From contig JAUJNI010000003.1 of the NCBI GenBank assembly GCA_030446465.1, positions 174,147-223,475 on the forward strand: a stretch of DNA of 49,329 nt, in the 5' to 3' direction. Shown piece after piece: positions 448-8,295 of the stretch. Position numbers and translations under genes: made by a program. This DNA is from Actinomycetota bacterium (GTDB taxonomy: Bacteria; Actinomycetota; CADDZG01; WHSQ01). Position 1 is the first letter of the stretch. The number at the start of each line of letters is the position of its first letter. Below the pieces are notes generated by a model. The model was not told the origin of the DNA and did no database searches. It was given only the letters and a program-made list of their open reading frames with translations.

Positions 448-1034
448 GCCGCACTCAACTGGTATGCGACGACGGCTCGATCATTGTGCTGGATGTCCAC
501 CGTTTCATGTGCGCTGCGACGCCCGAGGAGAAGAGGCTGTTGGCCAAAGCCACCTCGCCGGTGCTCGACATTGGATGCGGACCCGGACGCCACGTGCTGG
601 CCCTGGCTTACTCGGGCAAGATTGCGTTGGGGATCGACCCCGCGCCCAGCGCGGTGGCCCTTGCCCATCATCGTGGCGCAACGGTGATTCAGCGTTCGGT
701 CTTCGAGCATCTGCCGGCCACCGGCCGGTGGAACTCCGTGCTTCTTCTGGACGGGAATATCGGCATCGGTGGCGATCCCGTAGCCCTGTTGACGAGGGTC
801 GCAGAGCTGCTCTCTTACGGCGGTGTCGCGTTCGTCGAGCTCGAGGCTCCCGGAGTAGCCACTTCGCTGCTACGAGCACGGATTCAAACCGGAGGCAAGG
901 TCACCGGGTTCTTCGCGTGGGCGCGGGTCGGGGCGGATGACATAAGGCGGGTCGGCGCCCGCGGCGGACTCACGTTGGATGAGCTGTGGAGCGTGGGTCC
1001 GAGATGGTTCGCCAGCCTTCGAAGGGCTCTGTGA
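444..1034 (+). CDS. class I SAM-dependent methyltransferase
   Basis: A protein of 196 residues. Residues about 38-48 (SPVLDIGCGPGRH) are the glycine-rich motif I that binds S-adenosylmethionine, followed by an acidic strand end (ALGIDPAP) that would contact the ribose, and LLLDGNIGIGGDP in the motif IV position. This is a compact class I fold with no extra domain; the methyl acceptor cannot be read from the sequence. The ATG overlaps the stop of the upstream DUF2064 gene, so the two form one operon. The last 50 or so codons, plus about 20 bases after the stop, are repeated at 8107-8295 as a fragment. The stop is followed by unrelated sequence, so the original downstream neighbour may have been lost. 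Confidence 0.85.
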   Translation: MSRTQLVCDDGSIIVLDVHRFMCAATPEEKRLLAKATSPVLDIGCGPGRHVLALAYSGKIALGIDPAPSAVALAHHRGATVIQRSVFEHLPATGRWNSVLLLDGNIGIGGDPVALLTRVAELLSYGGVAFVELEAPGVATSLLRARIQTGGKVTGFFAWARVGADDIRRVGARGGLTLDELWSVGPRWFASLRRAL

Positions 1035-1212
1035 CGCTCCAGCGAGCTCCCAATCGGGATTCCGCCAACAGGCCCGCCACGACGATGACTGTGGCTGCGC
1101 CCATGAGCAGGGGGCGAACGCGGCGGCGGGCGAGGGCAATGGCGAGCACGACGGCGCCGAGGGACGCGGTCCCGTACCGTAAGAACAGCCCGGCGCCGAT
1201 CTGCTCCGACAA
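970..1212 (-). CDS. possible small membrane protein or remnant
   Basis: A minus-strand frame of 80 codons (TTG start; the frame is open back to about 1307) that overlaps the last 65 bases of the methyltransferase gene. Residues about 9-27 and 32-50 are two convincing hydrophobic segments separated by an arginine-rich loop (ARRRVRP), which is not what a chance antisense frame usually gives. The C-terminal part lies inside the repeated block also present at 8143-8295, where the same minus-strand frame is also open. I do not recognise a family. It could be the 5' remnant of a membrane protein gene fused by rearrangement to the methyltransferase end, or a chance frame. Confidence 0.2.
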   Translation of the reverse strand: MSEQIGAGLFLRYGTASLGAVVLAIALARRRVRPLLMGAATVIVVAGLLAESRLGARWSVTEPFEGWRTISDPRSTAHPT

Positions 1213-1504: not shown

Positions 1505-1555
1505 TGTCGACGCCGGGTGAAAACTGAGCACTTTCCGCCGGTCGAAAACTGCGCG
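1505..1555 (+). repeat. left terminal repeat of IS21 element
   Basis: Begins TGTCGACGCCGG. It contains unit 1 (1513-1530) and unit 2 (1537-1554) of the 18-bp repeat, which pair with the two units of the right end in inverted orientation with a few mismatches. Expected to be bound by IstA. Confidence 0.9.
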
Positions 1556-1627
1556 ATTTCCATCGCTTGAGCAGTCCATCGACCGAGTCTCAGGTCAGTC
1601 CATGACGACCGATCTGAGGAGGAAGGG

Positions 1628-2854
1628 GTGTACTCAGTGCATGACTGGGCCGAGGTCCACCGGCTCCACCACCGGGAGGGGTGGTCGAAGACCGCTATAG
1701 CCAGAAGGTTCTCGATGTCGCGCAACACCGTCGACCGCCTCCTGAGGCTTCAAGAGCCACCGTGCTACGAGCGCCGCGTCAAGGGCTCGCTGCTGGATCC
1801 GTTCAAGCGAGACATCGCCGAGATGCTCGACACCGATGCCGAGGCGCCGGCGACGGTGATCCTCGAGCACCTCCATGCGCGCGGCTACGAGGGTCGCATC
1901 ACGATCCTCAAGGACTACCTGAAGCAAGAGCGCCCTCGCTATCTGGCCCGGCGCAGCTTCCAGCGCACCAGCTACATCCCCGGCGAGATCGGCCAGTTCG
2001 ACTGGTGGGACCTGCCGATCCAGATCCCGGTGGGCAAGGAGCGCTTCCGCAGGCCGCACGGGCTGGTGGCGACGCTGCCGCATTCGGCCGCGCACGAAAC
2101 GGTGTTCACGTTCACCAAGACAATGGGCGACTTCTGCCCCGCGTTCATGGGAACGCTCGAGCGCTTCGGCGGTGTGCCCACAGCCGGCGTGTTCGACAAC
2201 GACTCGTCGATCATCGCGACTGGATCGGGCAAGAACGCGGTGCTGCACGACGAGGTCGCCGCGCTGTTCGGGCAGCTCGCTCTCAAGCCGATCATCTTGG
2301 AGAAGGAGCGCCCGGAATCCAAGGGCCAGGTCGAGCGCACCGTCGGCTACCTGGAGCGCAGCTTCCTGCCGCTGCGGAGCTTCGAGTGCATCGAGGACCT
2401 CCAGGACCAGCACGACACATGGGCGCGCGACAAGGCCCATCCCCGCCATCACCGCCGCGTCGGAGCACGGGTGGCCGACGCCTACAACGTCGAGCGCGGC
2501 TACCTGCACCCGCTACCTGACCCTCGACCCGACACCGACTTCCGCTTCGAGACAAGGGCGACCAAGGACCTGTTCATCCGGGTCTCGGGCGCCGACTACT
2601 CGATCCCGCCGGGACTCAGCGGACGGCGCCTGGCGGTCCGCACCTCGTTGCATGAAGTCGTCGTCTACCTTGAAGGTTCCGAGATCGCCCGCCACTCACG
2701 AAGCTACGTGCCGGCCGACGTCGTGCTCGATCCGACACATGCTCGTGCCCTGAGGCTGTCGCGGGAGGCCACCAACCACCTGGCGTCAGGTGACGTTGAG
2801 CTCGAGGCCCCCGACCTGTCGCGCTATGACGAGCTCATCGGGGCGTTGACGTGA
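1628..2854 (+). CDS. istA: IS21-family transposase IstA
   Basis: A protein of 408 residues starting at GTG with a strong GAGGAGGAAGG ribosome-binding site upstream. Residues about 10-42 form a helix-turn-helix (WSKTAIARRFSMSRNTVDRL) for end recognition. The retroviral-integrase-type catalytic core has D125 (GQFDWWD), D190 (VFDND) and E230 (RPESKGQVER), the complete DDE triad that performs strand transfer. The C-terminal region (about 310-400) resembles the Mu-transposase C-terminal domain. It works with the ATPase IstB, whose gene overlaps the istA stop. Length and motif order match intact family members. Confidence 0.95.
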   Translation: MYSVHDWAEVHRLHHREGWSKTAIARRFSMSRNTVDRLLRLQEPPCYERRVKGSLLDPFKRDIAEMLDTDAEAPATVILEHLHARGYEGRITILKDYLKQERPRYLARRSFQRTSYIPGEIGQFDWWDLPIQIPVGKERFRRPHGLVATLPHSAAHETVFTFTKTMGDFCPAFMGTLERFGGVPTAGVFDNDSSIIATGSGKNAVLHDEVAALFGQLALKPIILEKERPESKGQVERTVGYLERSFLPLRSFECIEDLQDQHDTWARDKAHPRHHRRVGARVADAYNVERGYLHPLPDPRPDTDFRFETRATKDLFIRVSGADYSIPPGLSGRRLAVRTSLHEVVVYLEGSEIARHSRSYVPADVVLDPTHARALRLSREATNHLASGDVELEAPDLSRYDELIGALT

Positions 2855-3618
2855 GCACGGTCGCATCCGAGGTCGCCTACCTATCGCGCGCCCTCAAGGC
2901 GCCGCGCGTCCCCGAGGCGGCCCGGGTGCTGGCCGAACGGGCGCGTGACGAATCGTGGGACTACGAGGCCTATCTCGCCGCGGTGCTGTCTGAGGAGGTC
3001 AGCTCGCGTGAAACGCATGGTGGCCAGGCTCGCGTCAAGCGCGCCCGCTTTCCTCAGGTCAAGACCCTCGACGACTTCGATTTCACCTTCCAGCGCTCGA
3101 TCAAGCGCCAGCAGATCGCTCATCTCGCCCAGCTCGACTTCTTGGCCGAGGCCAAGAACGTCGTTTTCTTGGGCCCACCGGGGACGGGCAAGACCCACCT
3201 CGCGATCGCACTCGGGGTCCAGGCCGCCCGTCGCGGTCACCGGGTCGCGTTCGCAACCGCCCATGAATGGGTGTTGCGCCTCGGTGAGGCCAAGCGAGCG
3301 GGCCGTCTTGACGGCGAGCTCGAACGACTTGGGCGCACGCCTTTGGTGATCTGCGACGAGGTCGGCTACATCCCCTTCGATCCCGAGGCGGCAGCGTTGT
3401 TCTTCGCTCTGGTCAGCTCCCGCTACGAGCGCTCGTCGCTCATCGTCTCGTCCAACAAGACCTTCTCCGCGTGGCCGGAGATCTTCGGCGATGCCGTCGC
3501 CGTCGCAGCGATGGTCGACCGGCTCGTCCACCACGCCGAGGTCATCCTGCTCAAGGGCGACAGCTATCGGCTGAAGGGCAAGCACAAGGAGGTGATGGGA
3601 TCCGAGAACACCCGCTAG
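2851..3618 (+). CDS. istB: IS21-family helper ATPase IstB
   Basis: A protein of 255 residues of the AAA+ DnaA/DnaC-like group that assists IstA in target selection and strand transfer. The Walker A motif GPPGTGKT lies at residues 108-115 and Walker B (PLVICDEVGYIPF) at about 164-176; a sensor-1-like SSNKTFSAW follows. The GTG start overlaps the istA TGA by four bases (GTGA), the usual translational coupling in IS21 elements. The right terminal repeat begins directly after the stop. It looks intact. Confidence 0.95.
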   Translation: MSTVASEVAYLSRALKAPRVPEAARVLAERARDESWDYEAYLAAVLSEEVSSRETHGGQARVKRARFPQVKTLDDFDFTFQRSIKRQQIAHLAQLDFLAEAKNVVFLGPPGTGKTHLAIALGVQAARRGHRVAFATAHEWVLRLGEAKRAGRLDGELERLGRTPLVICDEVGYIPFDPEAAALFFALVSSRYERSSLIVSSNKTFSAWPEIFGDAVAVAAMVDRLVHHAEVILLKGDSYRLKGKHKEVMGSENTR

Positions 3619-3620
3619 AC

Positions 3621-3671
3621 CGCGCAGTTTTCAACCGGCGATTCCCGCGCAGTTTTCGACCGGCGTTGACA
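3621..3671 (-). repeat. right terminal repeat of IS21 element
   Basis: The inverted counterpart of the left end. Read on the minus strand it begins TGTCAACGCCGG and carries two 18-bp units (GGTCGAAAACTGCGC core) spaced like those of the left end. Confidence 0.9.
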
Positions 3672-3676: not shown

Positions 3677-3884
3677 CCAAGATTGATGAGTCTATATTTT
3701 GTCGCCTGGACGCTAGCCTCAAAGAGGCTGGCCAGTAATTCCGGACTTACGGCTCGTCTACCTCTGTGGAGACGCGCTACGGCGTCGCACCAATAGAGTT
3801 CGGGGCGTCAATACTGCCGCGGCAAAGCTATTAGCTTCAATCTCTTCGGGGTCTGTCCGAAGGTGGAAATTTCGTCCCTCCGAT
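3677..3884. other. non-coding stretch after the IS21 element
   Basis: No gene seen. It has a small perfect hairpin at 3712-3732 (arms of AGCCTC with AAA loop) without a T-run, and the 13-mer CTGCCGCGGCAAA at 3814-3826, which also occurs at 1388-1400 on the other side of the IS element. GC is lower than in the respiratory operons. Confidence 0.4.
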
Positions 3885-3999
3885 TCAGTCAACACCTACC
3901 TGGAGCTCGGCAGCTATCGAGGCGCGGCCGACCTCTGCGGGTCGATCACAAAACCGTGAAACGGCTCGTGCAGCGGTGGCGGGCGGGTGAGCGCACGCG
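3885..3999 (+). pseudogene. remnant of a second IS21-like istA (N-terminal part)
   Basis: The plus strand reads TYLELGSYRGAADLCG and, after a one-base slip near 3940, VDHKTVKRLVQRWRAGER. This is the N-terminal helix-turn-helix region of another IS21-family transposase subgroup, split over two frames. No catalytic core follows and the reading frames collapse after about 3999, so only a fragment of roughly 40 codons survives. It is different from the IstA of the neighbouring intact element (which has a WSKTAIARRF helix-turn-helix), so it records an older insertion at the same place. Confidence 0.6.
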
Positions 4000-4096
4000 G
4001 CGTGGCCTTGATGGCGGTTGCAACATCGAGGTCGGATCACACCGGCGATCTTTGCTCTGTCGCAGGCGGCGGGCTCCCGTCGTAGCCATGGTTGAT

Positions 4097-5634
4097 TTAC
4101 GAGCGTGGAGGTGCAAGGACAATATATGCTGTCCCGGAAGCGGCTCGAGATCGGTGCCCGGCTTCTGGCGCTCCACCAATCACGTCGTCGCGAGCATCGC
4201 CGTTCACGTCCGGTAAAGCGGACACCGACCAACCGAAGAAGTCAAACTTGCTCTCTCCGTCGACACGGTATCCTTTGCGAAGCTTGCCAACGTAAACAGA
4301 TGAGTCAGAGGTCTTACCCGGAACGACGTACACGGACCCGGACTCCGTCCTGCCATTGTTGCTCGCAAAGGGGGCTCCGAGAACGGCTTCATCACGGCCA
4401 TCATTATTAATATCGCCAACTACTGACACTGACGTTCCCGTTGCGTCAAAGGGTGTCGCTCCACTAATGCGGTAACCGCTCCCCTCAAGTGAACGAATAC
4501 TCACGGTGGAGGTCTCGTCTCGACCGAAGACTATTACGGCTGATCCTGATCGATCAAGCCCACCCACTGACGCACCTGGTGCGCCAACGAGAAGGTCGTC
4601 TCGGCCATCTCCATTCGTATCACCGCCCCCTGCTACTGCGCTACCGAAGTCCTCGCTTGCTGTGGCGCCTGCGATCTTGAAGCCCCTTTCGCCAAGGGAC
4701 GCCAGGTCCACAGTGGACGACGCGGTCCCTCCAAAGAGAACATATGCTGAACCCCTCCTATCGAAATATCTGGCAGGGGCTCCTACGATCAAGTCATCGA
4801 TTCCGTCGCTATTAACGTCGCCAGCGCCCGCCACACTCCAACCAGTTGTTTTCTCTGGCTTCTCGCCATCGATGCGATATCCCTACCTGTCAGTCTCTGC
4901 AGGTCTACCGGGCTAGTAGACACTCGACCGAACACAACATAAGCGGACCCGGAGTAGCCTCGCCCATGTCGGCCCGCCAACGGTGCACCGAGCGCGACGT
5001 CAGCTAGTCCATCTCTATTGACATCCCCGATACCCGCAACCGACGAACCCGCGTAACTCTTAACTCCTGAGCCCTCAATTCGAAAACCTTCACTCCCAAT
5101 ATCGGCGAGGTGAACTGCAGACGTGTCTCGGGCCTTGCCGAAGACGACATACGCGGTCCCGGCATTGGTCCGTGACGAAGCGTCGGCCCAGGGGGCACCT
5201 ACGATCACATCATCGAGACCGTCTCCGTTGACATCACCAGCTCCTGCCACAGAAAACCCGGTGAAGTCTCCTGGCTCGGCACCTTTGATGAGAAACCCGC
5301 CATCGCCGAGATCGCGCAAGTCCACCTTGCGAAAGAAGGGCCCGAAGACAACATACGCCCGCCCGAGGTTGACCCTGCCATCGTTGCCCGATGTTCCTAC
5401 GATGACATCTCCAGCCCCATCTCCATTGACGTCGCCCGCGCTGCTCACCGAGGTTCCTGCATTGTCGTAGCGGTGGGCACCGTCAATAGGGACATCGTTC
5501 CGGTCGCGGAGGTCCGTGCTGGCCATTGCGTTCTGGACTCGGCGCTCCCGAACCTCGGGAGATGCCCCAGACGGGCTCATGCCCAGCAGGGGGACAATCA
5601 AGATCAACCCCAGAGCCGTTCTTTTCCGTCTCAT
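4097..5634 (-). pseudogene. secreted FG-GAP (integrin-alpha-like) seven-repeat beta-propeller, frameshifted
   Basis: The ATG at 5634 overlaps the stop of the upstream gene (ATGA) and is followed by a signal peptide (MRRKRTALGLILIVPLLG). Seven FG-GAP repeats follow, each about 64 residues with a calcium-binding-loop pattern like AGDVNGDGLDDVIVGAP. Repeats 1-3 are in one frame and repeats 4-7 in another. Near 4880-4886 the frame breaks at LTGRDIA; adding one base to the GGG run (CCC on the plus strand, 4881-4883) restores GYRIDGEKPEKTTGWSVAGAGDV and joins the frames. Seven repeats make one complete seven-bladed propeller, so the two pieces are clearly one protein of about 512 residues. As written, translation stops at 4789. 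Proteins of this kind act outside the cell in adhesion or ligand binding; the ligand is unknown. The break may be true decay or a base-calling error. Confidence 0.85.
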
Positions 5635-6257
5635 TCCAGCGTCAAATGAAAGGTCCAAACAGCATCCTGGTCATTGGCCGATCCCTCTACGTCATCCCAT
5701 TTCCCAAAGATCTCAAGGTACAGGTGTCCCTTCCTATGGGGCAACCGAAAGACTGCGTCGTAGATGACATCGCCGTCCACAGTTCTCTTAACCAGCTCAT
5801 GTGACACCGACTGCCCCGGTCCTCGCGGAGTCCCATTGCGTTCTACCTCTCTCCAGCGGTGAATACGCAGCTGCTTGGGGATCTGTGCCTTGTAAAGGCG
5901 CACTCGCGCCTTTCGACCAGACCAAGCGGGGCGCGCTCTGGGAAAGTCTTGCGTTGTATCGACGCACTGAGTGCCGAAAAGACCAGGCTCTCCCGTGGCT
6001 CTAGTCCAGCAGTACGTTCCAAGCTGACCCCGTTGGGTAGTCGTCGCGCTCACCAGCCGCGTCTTGGGGGGCTCGTGATCATGTGCGTGGGCAGATCCAG
6101 AGAAAGACAGCAACAAACCCATCAAGAGAGTTAGCGTGGCTCGACGACCGTCTTTCTCCTCACGCTCAAGGTCGCTCAAAGGTGCGCCTGAATATTCGCG
6201 AGACGCGATGATCGCGCTCCTCCGTACCCCAACCCCAATTCGCGAAGCAACCGGCAT
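5631..6257 (-). CDS. secreted protein of unknown function
   Basis: At most 208 residues. A signal-peptide-like stretch (RRATLTLLMGLLLSFSGSAHA) begins about 38 residues in, so the annotated start at 6257 is probably too long; a TTG at about 6179 is a closer candidate, but no clear ribosome-binding site decides it. The mature part begins HDHEPPKTRL and has a QRGQLGTYCW segment and a second cysteine (TQCVDTT) that could form a disulfide, then a beta-rich end (DAVWTFHLTLE). I have seen the G-x-x-G-(T/S)-Y-C-W pattern in actinobacterial secreted proteins but know no function. Its stop overlaps the start of the FG-GAP propeller gene by four bases, so the two are translationally coupled and likely work together at the cell surface. 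Confidence 0.6.
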   Translation of the reverse strand: MPVASRIGVGVRRSAIIASREYSGAPLSDLEREEKDGRRATLTLLMGLLLSFSGSAHAHDHEPPKTRLVSATTTQRGQLGTYCWTRATGEPGLFGTQCVDTTQDFPRARPAWSGRKARVRLYKAQIPKQLRIHRWREVERNGTPRGPGQSVSHELVKRTVDGDVIYDAVFRLPHRKGHLYLEIFGKWDDVEGSANDQDAVWTFHLTLE

Positions 6258-6396
6258 CCACCAGATCCGATACCCGCAAACCGCGGAGTTCCCATCGGCT
6301 TGCCGAACACCCAGGGCTGACGTGGACGTGCAAATAAGGTCTGACTTTCCAGACCAATCAGCGTCTCGGATGTCGACTCCCGGCGGAACACGTCCA
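6258..6396. other. gap between two minus-strand genes
   Basis: Short minus-strand frames run through this stretch (for example one reading VFGKPMGTPRFAGIGSGG) but none has a convincing start or family. It could be the damaged 5' part of the secreted-protein gene or plain spacer. Confidence 0.3.
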
Positions 6397-6675
6397 CTAT
6401 CGACTCCTTCTCAGCGAGCTCCTTCTGGAACTCTCTCGCTGAGAGAGCACATGCAGCAACCAGAAAACGATTCCAGCTGCCACTATTCCTGCCATTAGCG
6501 CTATGACCATTCCCACGGCGCCGTTTTCACCGCTATACCGTACGAGAACACTGTCCGACCAACTCTCGCATTTCCCGCCCCCGGTCGTATCCGCGCACTG
6601 GCTCGTCCCTCCCGTTGGGAAGAAGAGAGCCATGACAAATAAACCGATTACTGCAGCGACAAGTTTTGCTCTCAC
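6397..6675 (-). CDS. small membrane protein, unknown
   Basis: 92 residues from a GTG start. Residues about 4-22 (KLVAAVIGLFVMALFFP) are a signal peptide or first membrane segment; a short outer loop with two cysteines (SQCADTTGGGKCESW) follows, which could form a disulfide; a second membrane segment (about 53-76, GMVIALMAGIVAAGIVFWLL) is followed by a basic, serine-rich cytoplasmic tail (RESSRRSSLRRSR). This positive tail supports an inside C-terminus. It lies between the metalloprotease and the secreted-protein genes on the same strand, so it is probably part of the same surface-protein cluster. No family is recognised. Confidence 0.55.
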   Translation of the reverse strand: MRAKLVAAVIGLFVMALFFPTGGTSQCADTTGGGKCESWSDSVLVRYSGENGAVGMVIALMAGIVAAGIVFWLLHVLSQRESSRRSSLRRSR

Positions 6676-6816
6676 GATGTCATTCCTTGCTGTATGTGCT
6701 GAAGCCGACGGGCCACCGGTTCAAGAAACCCGATGATTGAAGGACCCAATCCCAGGAACATAGGGACCTCAAGCATCCGAGATCCCTTCTACCACGGGAG
6801 GGCAGCGTCCGTACCT

Positions 6817-7847
6817 TCAATACTTCCTCTCCAGCCCTTCCCAATCGCCCTTGCCAATTGTTCGCTCTGCGGTCTTGCAGGCTCTTATGAACGGATTCAT
6901 CGTGAGAGACGTGTGGGAGTCGTCATCACCTACATGGCCCATACCTAAGCTATGCCCTCTTTCGTGGGTCATGACCGCCTCCACGTCGTACTTGTCATCA
7001 CAGCGGGAGCCGGTTGGATTGTTTGTCCACACGGCCTCATACTTATTGAACTTTACGTCCGACTCCTGTATCTCGTCGTACCCAATGCGCTCGATGCCGA
7101 GATTGGTGCACTCGACCGCCAGCGTCTTCCTGCCCGATAGCGCGCCAGGTAGGTTGCCCCAAGAAACTTCACTGGCCGTGTCGCCACCGCCACAGTTTGC
7201 GTTCTCGTCGATCTCGGTCAGGCTATCCGTGGTCCCTTGGTAGGAAAACCCGGCCGAAACGTTGTCGCCATGACCGCAGACGTTCGTCACGTTAGCCATG
7301 TTCGAGCCGCCTTGTCTGAGCGCTGAAAGCGTTTCGGAAGCACCAACCTCGAACGGCCTGCTATCGGAGTTGTACCACCACCGGAGATCTTCATCGATCT
7401 TCTCGTCCTTGTCGTGAGGATTGGTGCCGTCGTTGCACTGATTGCTGCTCGATGTCGTCCCCTGGTCTTCCTCACCACCGCCAGTCTCAAGGGAGTAGTC
7501 AGGACCTACATAACCAAACTCGACCAAGCCTCCGACGTGATGAGTAATCATCAGTTCTTCGGCGCCAAGAGTGTCCCCGAGCGCGTCTGTGACAACGAGA
7601 GCCTCTGCATATATTGAATGGCCCTCCTCGGGAACGACAGCCCCGATCTCATGGTCCCTGACTAGCCGGTTTCGAGATCGCACACATCAACAGAAACAGG
7701 ATTTGGAAGCGTTGACGCGTCTATGGGAGCGTTGCCTTCACACACCGCTAAGGGCGCCGGCATAGAGGCGGTCAGTGCCGACACCGGCTGACTCATCTGA
7801 ACTACGACCATTACAAGAGGAATTGCCCACCTTCCACGGATGTTCAC
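6817..7847 (-). pseudogene. secreted metzincin-type zinc metalloprotease, frameshifted near its N-terminus
   Basis: The catalytic part has HERGHSLGMGH at about 6966-6934, the full HExxHxxGxxH zinc site of metzincins, with a likely Met-turn (SLTMNP) 22 residues after the first histidine. Upstream the protein has many Asp and Cys residues and no other named domain. The best start is the GTG at 7845-7847, seven bases after AAGGAG, giving a signal peptide (RGRWAIPLVMVVVQMSQPVSA) and a mature start that runs to VSVDVCDLETG and a stop at 7662. The catalytic frame takes over in the overlap 7662-7683 (RLVRDHEIGAVV). One missing base there would join them, so I read this as one gene with a one-base deletion. 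Alternatively a shorter, leaderless protein starts at GTG 7683. Substrate unknown. Confidence 0.75.
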
Positions 7848-8094
7848 AGACACGCTCCTTCCCAGCCCGTCAAGATTGAACGAGTGCCGTGTGGTCAGCA
7901 CCTGCGTCAGTCCCGCAGCCAGGCTCCTCCCACCCACAGGCAACGTACTGCGGGAACACCTCGATCCCATAGCCCGAACGGGTCATCTTTGGTTGCCTCC
8001 GGGACTAGTTAGTTAGGTTGCCGAGCAAGGTTGTAAGACGGCGAGTTAGACGAGCCGCGATCCCACGTTCCCCGGTTTGAAGGACATCTGGATA
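7848..8094. other. upstream region of the metalloprotease gene
   Basis: It holds the ribosome-binding site AAGGAG (minus strand, 7855-7860) of the metalloprotease and otherwise no gene. The heptamer GGTTGCC occurs twice on the plus strand (about 7990 and 8014) around ACTAGTTAGTTAGG. I considered riboswitch folds and could not fit one. Confidence 0.4.
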
Positions 8095-8113: not shown

Positions 8114-8295
8114 GGAAGGCAGTTTTAACCGGGGCGGAGACCACCGGGTTGTTCGCGTGGGCCCGGGTCGGGGATGGCATAAGGCGGGTCGGCGCCCGCG
8201 GGGGACTCAGGTTGGACGAGCTGTGGAGCATGGGTCCGAGATGGTTCGCCAGCCTTCGAAGGGCTCCGTGATCCTCCAGCGAGCTCCCCGATCGG
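8107..8295 (+). pseudogene. fragment of methyltransferase gene (repeat of 867-1057)
   Basis: From 8143 to 8295 the sequence matches 903-1057 at about 90 percent by eye, with one in-frame three-base deletion (ADD in the full gene, D-G here) and the same stop codon (8269-8271). The frame reads TGLFAWARVG, RRVGARGGLRLDELW and GPRWFASLRRAP. Similarity continues weakly upstream to about 8107, before which there is an in-frame TAA (8104), and about 24 bases past the stop. No motif I is present, so it cannot be a working methyltransferase. Together with the full gene it brackets the accessory region as a direct repeat. Confidence 0.8.

Follow-up and report, generated by a model that had tools for sequence, protein, structure and literature searches.

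A probably decaying actinobacterial locus that may have encoded an integrin-type binding unit with a secreted metzincin

Do four adjoining genes for exported proteins in an actinobacterial genome constitute an extracellular system, and are they intact? The genes lie at 4097-7850 of the 49,329-nt stretch of DNA analysed here (the window), in a 2.76-Mb assembly of six contigs with a completeness of 95.7%. An initial annotation described them as a surface cassette in which a secreted zinc protease, a membrane partner and an adhesion-type propeller could form a processing or attachment system. Examination of the sequence reveals four coding regions, for a metalloprotease, a small membrane protein, SEC (our working name for the product of 5631-6257) and an FG-GAP propeller, in that order; the ORF list places them all on the minus strand, as had been described. 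They are not all intact, at least two being frameshifted, and the metalloprotease and the propeller each occupy two ORFs:

7662-7850, minus strand: N-terminal part of the protease, a signal peptide (VNIRGRWAIPLVMVVVQMSQPVSA) and about 40 residues, then an in-frame stop (from translation)
6817-7683, minus strand: metzincin body, M10/matrixin, with HExxHxxGxxH and Met-turn (PF00413, E = 1.4e-7, above cut-off)
6397-6675, minus strand: small membrane protein of 92 aa with N-terminal hydrophobic segment, Cys-x8-Cys stretch, second transmembrane segment and basic tail (from hydropathy)
5631-6257, minus strand: SEC, predicted secreted beta-sandwich domain of about 145 aa (from homologues and an all-beta model, pTM 0.62)
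4789-5634, minus strand: propeller part 1, signal peptide and FG-GAP blades 1-3, with an ATGA overlap with the SEC gene (PF01839)
4097-4885, minus strand: propeller part 2 (ORF at 4097-4834), in another frame, FG-GAP blades 4-7 and the natural C-terminus (PF01839, E = 3.1e-33)

The reading that we prefer, on which the evidence is evenly poised, is that of an eroding locus, horizontally acquired or lineage-specific, for a binding unit of propeller and SEC accompanied by a secreted metzincin. The lower GC content noted earlier is evident: 57.5% against 63% for the window, where stretches of equal length (3.75 kb) located beyond 8.5 kb all exceed it, at 61.1-65.7%. Likewise, GC3 is 0.59-0.66 in the cassette and mostly 0.74-0.86 in the adjoining chromosomal genes. 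The ATGA coupling of two genes can also be read directly in the sequence, where the SEC stop overlaps the propeller ATG (5634) at 5631-5634. This is the only tight coupling. Three of the genes are spaced more widely, about 140 nt apart, which counts against the preferred reading, as does a weak terminator-like stem at 6355-6338.

The zinc metalloprotease is correctly identified, as a PF00413 matrixin match with VMTHERGHSLGMGHV...LTMNP is present; the motif HERGHSLGMGH with the Met-turn LTMNP is that of a metzincin of the Peptidase_M10 type. Its signal peptide, encoded from 7850 down to about 7675, and its catalytic body occupy different frames, with the change near 7665-7675. That the two ORFs are one protein is shown by a paralogue in the same genome (L033 6382-7140), whose N-terminus matches the 7662-7850 part in layout and with which the body aligns (blastp) from paralogue residue 58 onwards. 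This paralogue is itself frameshifted, further downstream; the source genome thus holds a second, likewise broken metzincin (G000:C1:263137-263971; L033 6126-7140). The cassette protease shares its catalytic motif, Met-turn and secreted layout with M10-type metzincins and the MXAN_2677/2678 family of myxosortase-dependent metalloproteases (NF041905). It is not a member of the latter, to which it gives a partial match of 38.1 bits against a cut-off of 250. It differs from the known metzincin models in matching them in the catalytic C-terminal part only and in being frameshifted, and its similarity to solved MMP structures is weak.

The propeller proved, as claimed, to be of the FG-GAP type: seven matches above cut-off, spread over two frames, define an integrin-type propeller. 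A pattern match locates DxNxDG calcium loops in six of its blades; the seventh has a variant, DVNGDA, recognised by eye. These blades do not lie in one continuous frame. The break near 4882-4888 is delineated by a 783-aa relative from another genome, G013 (L014), whose residues 38-228 align to window positions 5487-4888 and residues 231-494 to 4882-4106 in a different frame, two residues being skipped at the junction. Bacterial integrin-type seven-bladed beta-propellers (PF01839) carry a DxDxDG-like calcium loop in all seven blades, according to the excerpted account of them (PMC3192720). The cassette protein shares with them seven FG-GAP repeats and a signal peptide, and has the GAP tripeptide in six of its seven blades; unlike them, it is split by a frameshift and partnered by SEC, which is absent from that excerpted description. 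Its close relatives occur in just two of the 24 genomes of the class in our collection, both times at a SEC gene.

A third frameshift probably lies in the SEC signal peptide. The 5631-6257 ORF begins about 40 codons upstream of the signal-peptide core, and the true start is probably a family-like GTG at 6163 (MRRK...), whose frame differs from that of the downstream sequence and runs into a stop at 6131-6133; the remaining part of the signal peptide shares the frame of SEC. The export signals or membrane segments suggested for all four products are largely borne out: the membrane protein has two hydrophobic segments and the propeller a signal-peptide core, and the protease has a signal peptide that lies in the other frame.

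Do these frameshifts reflect decay of the genes or errors of the assembly? Elsewhere in the window the chromosomal genes, among them the neighbouring nuo operon of about 15 kb, are unbroken ORFs of normal length; since this operon reads without interruption, real decay is the more likely cause. Were the lesions assembly errors, the genes would all be intact and functional, which we consider rather unlikely. Long-read assembly errors also yield single-base losses, and every lesion here resembles the loss of one base, one of them inside a G run, a pattern that counts against our preferred reading; furthermore, the six-contig, 95.7%-complete assembly is probably of long-read origin. Such errors would, however, have had to break two, probably three, of the four cassette genes within less than 4 kb and spare the nuo operon and other chromosomal genes, and the protease paralogue at 263 kb of contig C1 is broken likewise. 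Phase variability is frequent among bacterial surface genes, and this general knowledge is what would favour programmed or phase-variable switching; this is very improbable, as the two junctions are unlike each other, only one has a run of three Gs, and neither has a repeat tract or an evident slippery heptamer. Given that frameshifts affect two or more of the four genes and that no other occurrence of the complete four-gene set was found, a working four-gene cassette in the source genome is doubtful; judged from sequence, the set is probably no longer functional there.

Searches with SEC returned no match in Pfam, NCBIfam or the phage families of PHROGs, nothing of meaning in a profile search against PDB sequences and no match in plasmids. 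A nine-sequence profile detected homologues in five of the 24 genomes of the class and in 13 of 396 Actinomycetota genomes (two of the 13 weakly), the nearest named record with a homologue being an Actinomycetota MAG. The distribution is patchy, with multiple copies in some genomes, as is typical of accessory genes. Two AlphaFold models, built on two-sequence alignments, are all-beta sandwiches with pTM of 0.53 and 0.62, and Foldseek returned nothing for them at E below 0.001. In its predicted all-beta sandwich within a secreted protein SEC resembles Ig-like and NEAT-type surface domains, and NEAT domains were the best Foldseek matches of the trimmed model. It could not be assigned to NEAT, having no Pfam match and a best Foldseek E of 0.023 at a TM of about 0.3 for a model of moderate confidence. 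The matches to RhoGDI and NEAT were not significant, and neither was accepted as a homologue.

An association with FG-GAP and metzincin genes, as proposed for both small-protein families of the cassette, recurs for SEC and not for the 6397-6675 family. In G013, a single 783-aa protein (L014 5463-7814) combines a signal peptide, FG-GAP repeats and two C-terminal SEC domains; its propeller is 36-45% identical to that of the window and collinear with its seven blades. In G060, from another family, a SEC gene directly follows the gene for a 608-aa secreted M10 protease on the same strand, the ORFs overlapping; this protease is 28% identical to that of the cassette over 304 aa, and an FG-GAP_3 protein is encoded about 2.7 kb upstream. 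Thus, SEC is linked elsewhere to both partners, by fusion to the propeller and in tandem with the metzincin. Moreover, a close relative of the cassette protease occurs in four of 60 relatives, three of which are among the five SEC carriers (hypergeometric p about 0.001, uncorrected for phylogeny). Several observations count against our reading: the gene order in the window differs from that of the fusion, the fusion and the tandem pair are each known from one locus, and SEC elsewhere mostly stands alone, with no adjoining protease or propeller. A search for further protease-SEC pairs in the G060 order, covering five genomes, returned only the known pair, and no description of an FG-GAP/metalloprotease operon in actinobacteria was found in the literature.

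The small membrane protein has hydropathy peaks at residues 1 and 56, and the short stretch between them that contains Cys-x8-Cys is predicted to be extracellular. Across 396 genomes of the phylum, its family is represented only by a paralogue on another contig of the source genome (G000:C4:358093), 57% identical in the core, and by one marginal match. A weak match to a 409-aa CvpA-like serine protease was attributed to chance similarity between transmembrane segments. The protein is probably an unrelated passenger. Its paralogue (L032 7088-8050) adjoins fragments resembling Rhs/YD-repeat proteins.

The surroundings of the cassette contain a mobile element and a partly duplicated gene:

887-1051, plus strand: left direct-repeat copy, the 3' end of a methyltransferase gene at 444-1034 (repeat families D1/D2, 93% and 83%)
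1505-3671, plus strand: insertion element, which we take from its IstA and IstB to be of the IS21 family, with istA 1628-2854, istB 2851-3618 and imperfect 51-nt terminal inverted repeats (from ORFs and inverted repeat)
8127-8288, plus strand: right direct-repeat copy, a methyltransferase 3' end lacking the rest of the gene (from a repeat search), 75% identical in protein over residues 142-195

The methyltransferase gene lies about 2.6 kb from nuoN in the relative G002 and 10.4 kb from it in the window, where the interval holds the IS21 element, the cassette and the partial second methyltransferase 3' end. The stretch is accordingly an insertion or replacement specific to the lineage. The low GC and GC3, the frameshifts, the IS21 element and the flanking repeats speak for its insertion and erosion. 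In several relatives an oxidoreductase-like gene adjoins the methyltransferase. The imperfect direct repeats, of about 160 bp, bracket the IS21 element and cassette at a spacing of about 7.2 kb. Between the element and the propeller gene, a remnant ORF at 3863-4216 without a Pfam match contains a stretch resembling a helix-turn-helix (HKTVKRLVQRWRAGE) and is perhaps an old transposase fragment.

Given this setting, it is a less likely but real possibility that accessory secreted genes were gathered at random at an IS-associated hotspot and had no joint function. The standalone state of SEC in most genomes, the unlinked state of the membrane protein elsewhere, the wide intergenic gaps, and the presence of own-genome paralogues of the protease, membrane protein and SEC at three separate sites are all consistent with this. 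Against it stand the ATGA coupling at the cassette and two findings from other genomes, the SEC-propeller fusion in one and the protease-SEC tandem pair in the second. Since SEC elsewhere forms one protein with an integrin-like propeller or lies beside a similar protease, the grouping is partly real. Of the processing or attachment system envisaged at the outset, the SEC-propeller and SEC-protease associations are retained, the membrane partner is not, and a working four-gene cassette is doubtful.

Returning to the eroding binding-unit locus, we propose that the locus, when intact, would have given rise to SEC and a calcium-stabilised integrin-type propeller of seven blades by co-translation via the ATGA overlap, and that the two, once exported, might have acted as a single extracellular unit of binding. 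The metzincin, exported on its own, could then have trimmed or released the ligand of this unit, or processed a surface partner. The physical SEC-propeller interaction, the binding role and the protease target are each inferred. A broader and tentative proposal, which we regard as unlikely, is that SEC represents an undescribed family of secreted actinobacterial domains with a beta-sandwich fold, dedicated to integrin-type propellers and metzincins in a small surface system of protease plus adhesion. The gain is that a secreted domain which recurs across genomes, and for which Pfam and NCBIfam have no family, is tied by fusion to bacterial integrin-type propellers, the roles of which are mostly unknown; the fused G013 protein offers a single testable construct.

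Among the SEC neighbours examined in genus g118, none was recognisable as an M10 or FG-GAP gene; some SEC genes there adjoin genes for RTX calcium-binding or bacterial Ig-domain proteins (L072 5906-7102, L073 4194-5917, L074 2490-5374). A further locus in G013 (contig C62; L034 3929-8442) encodes two metzincins, one of which carries fibronectin type III domains, alternating with three small secreted proteins; these belong to a further unclassified type, marked by DxNDxxGxxDVKxxxHGH.
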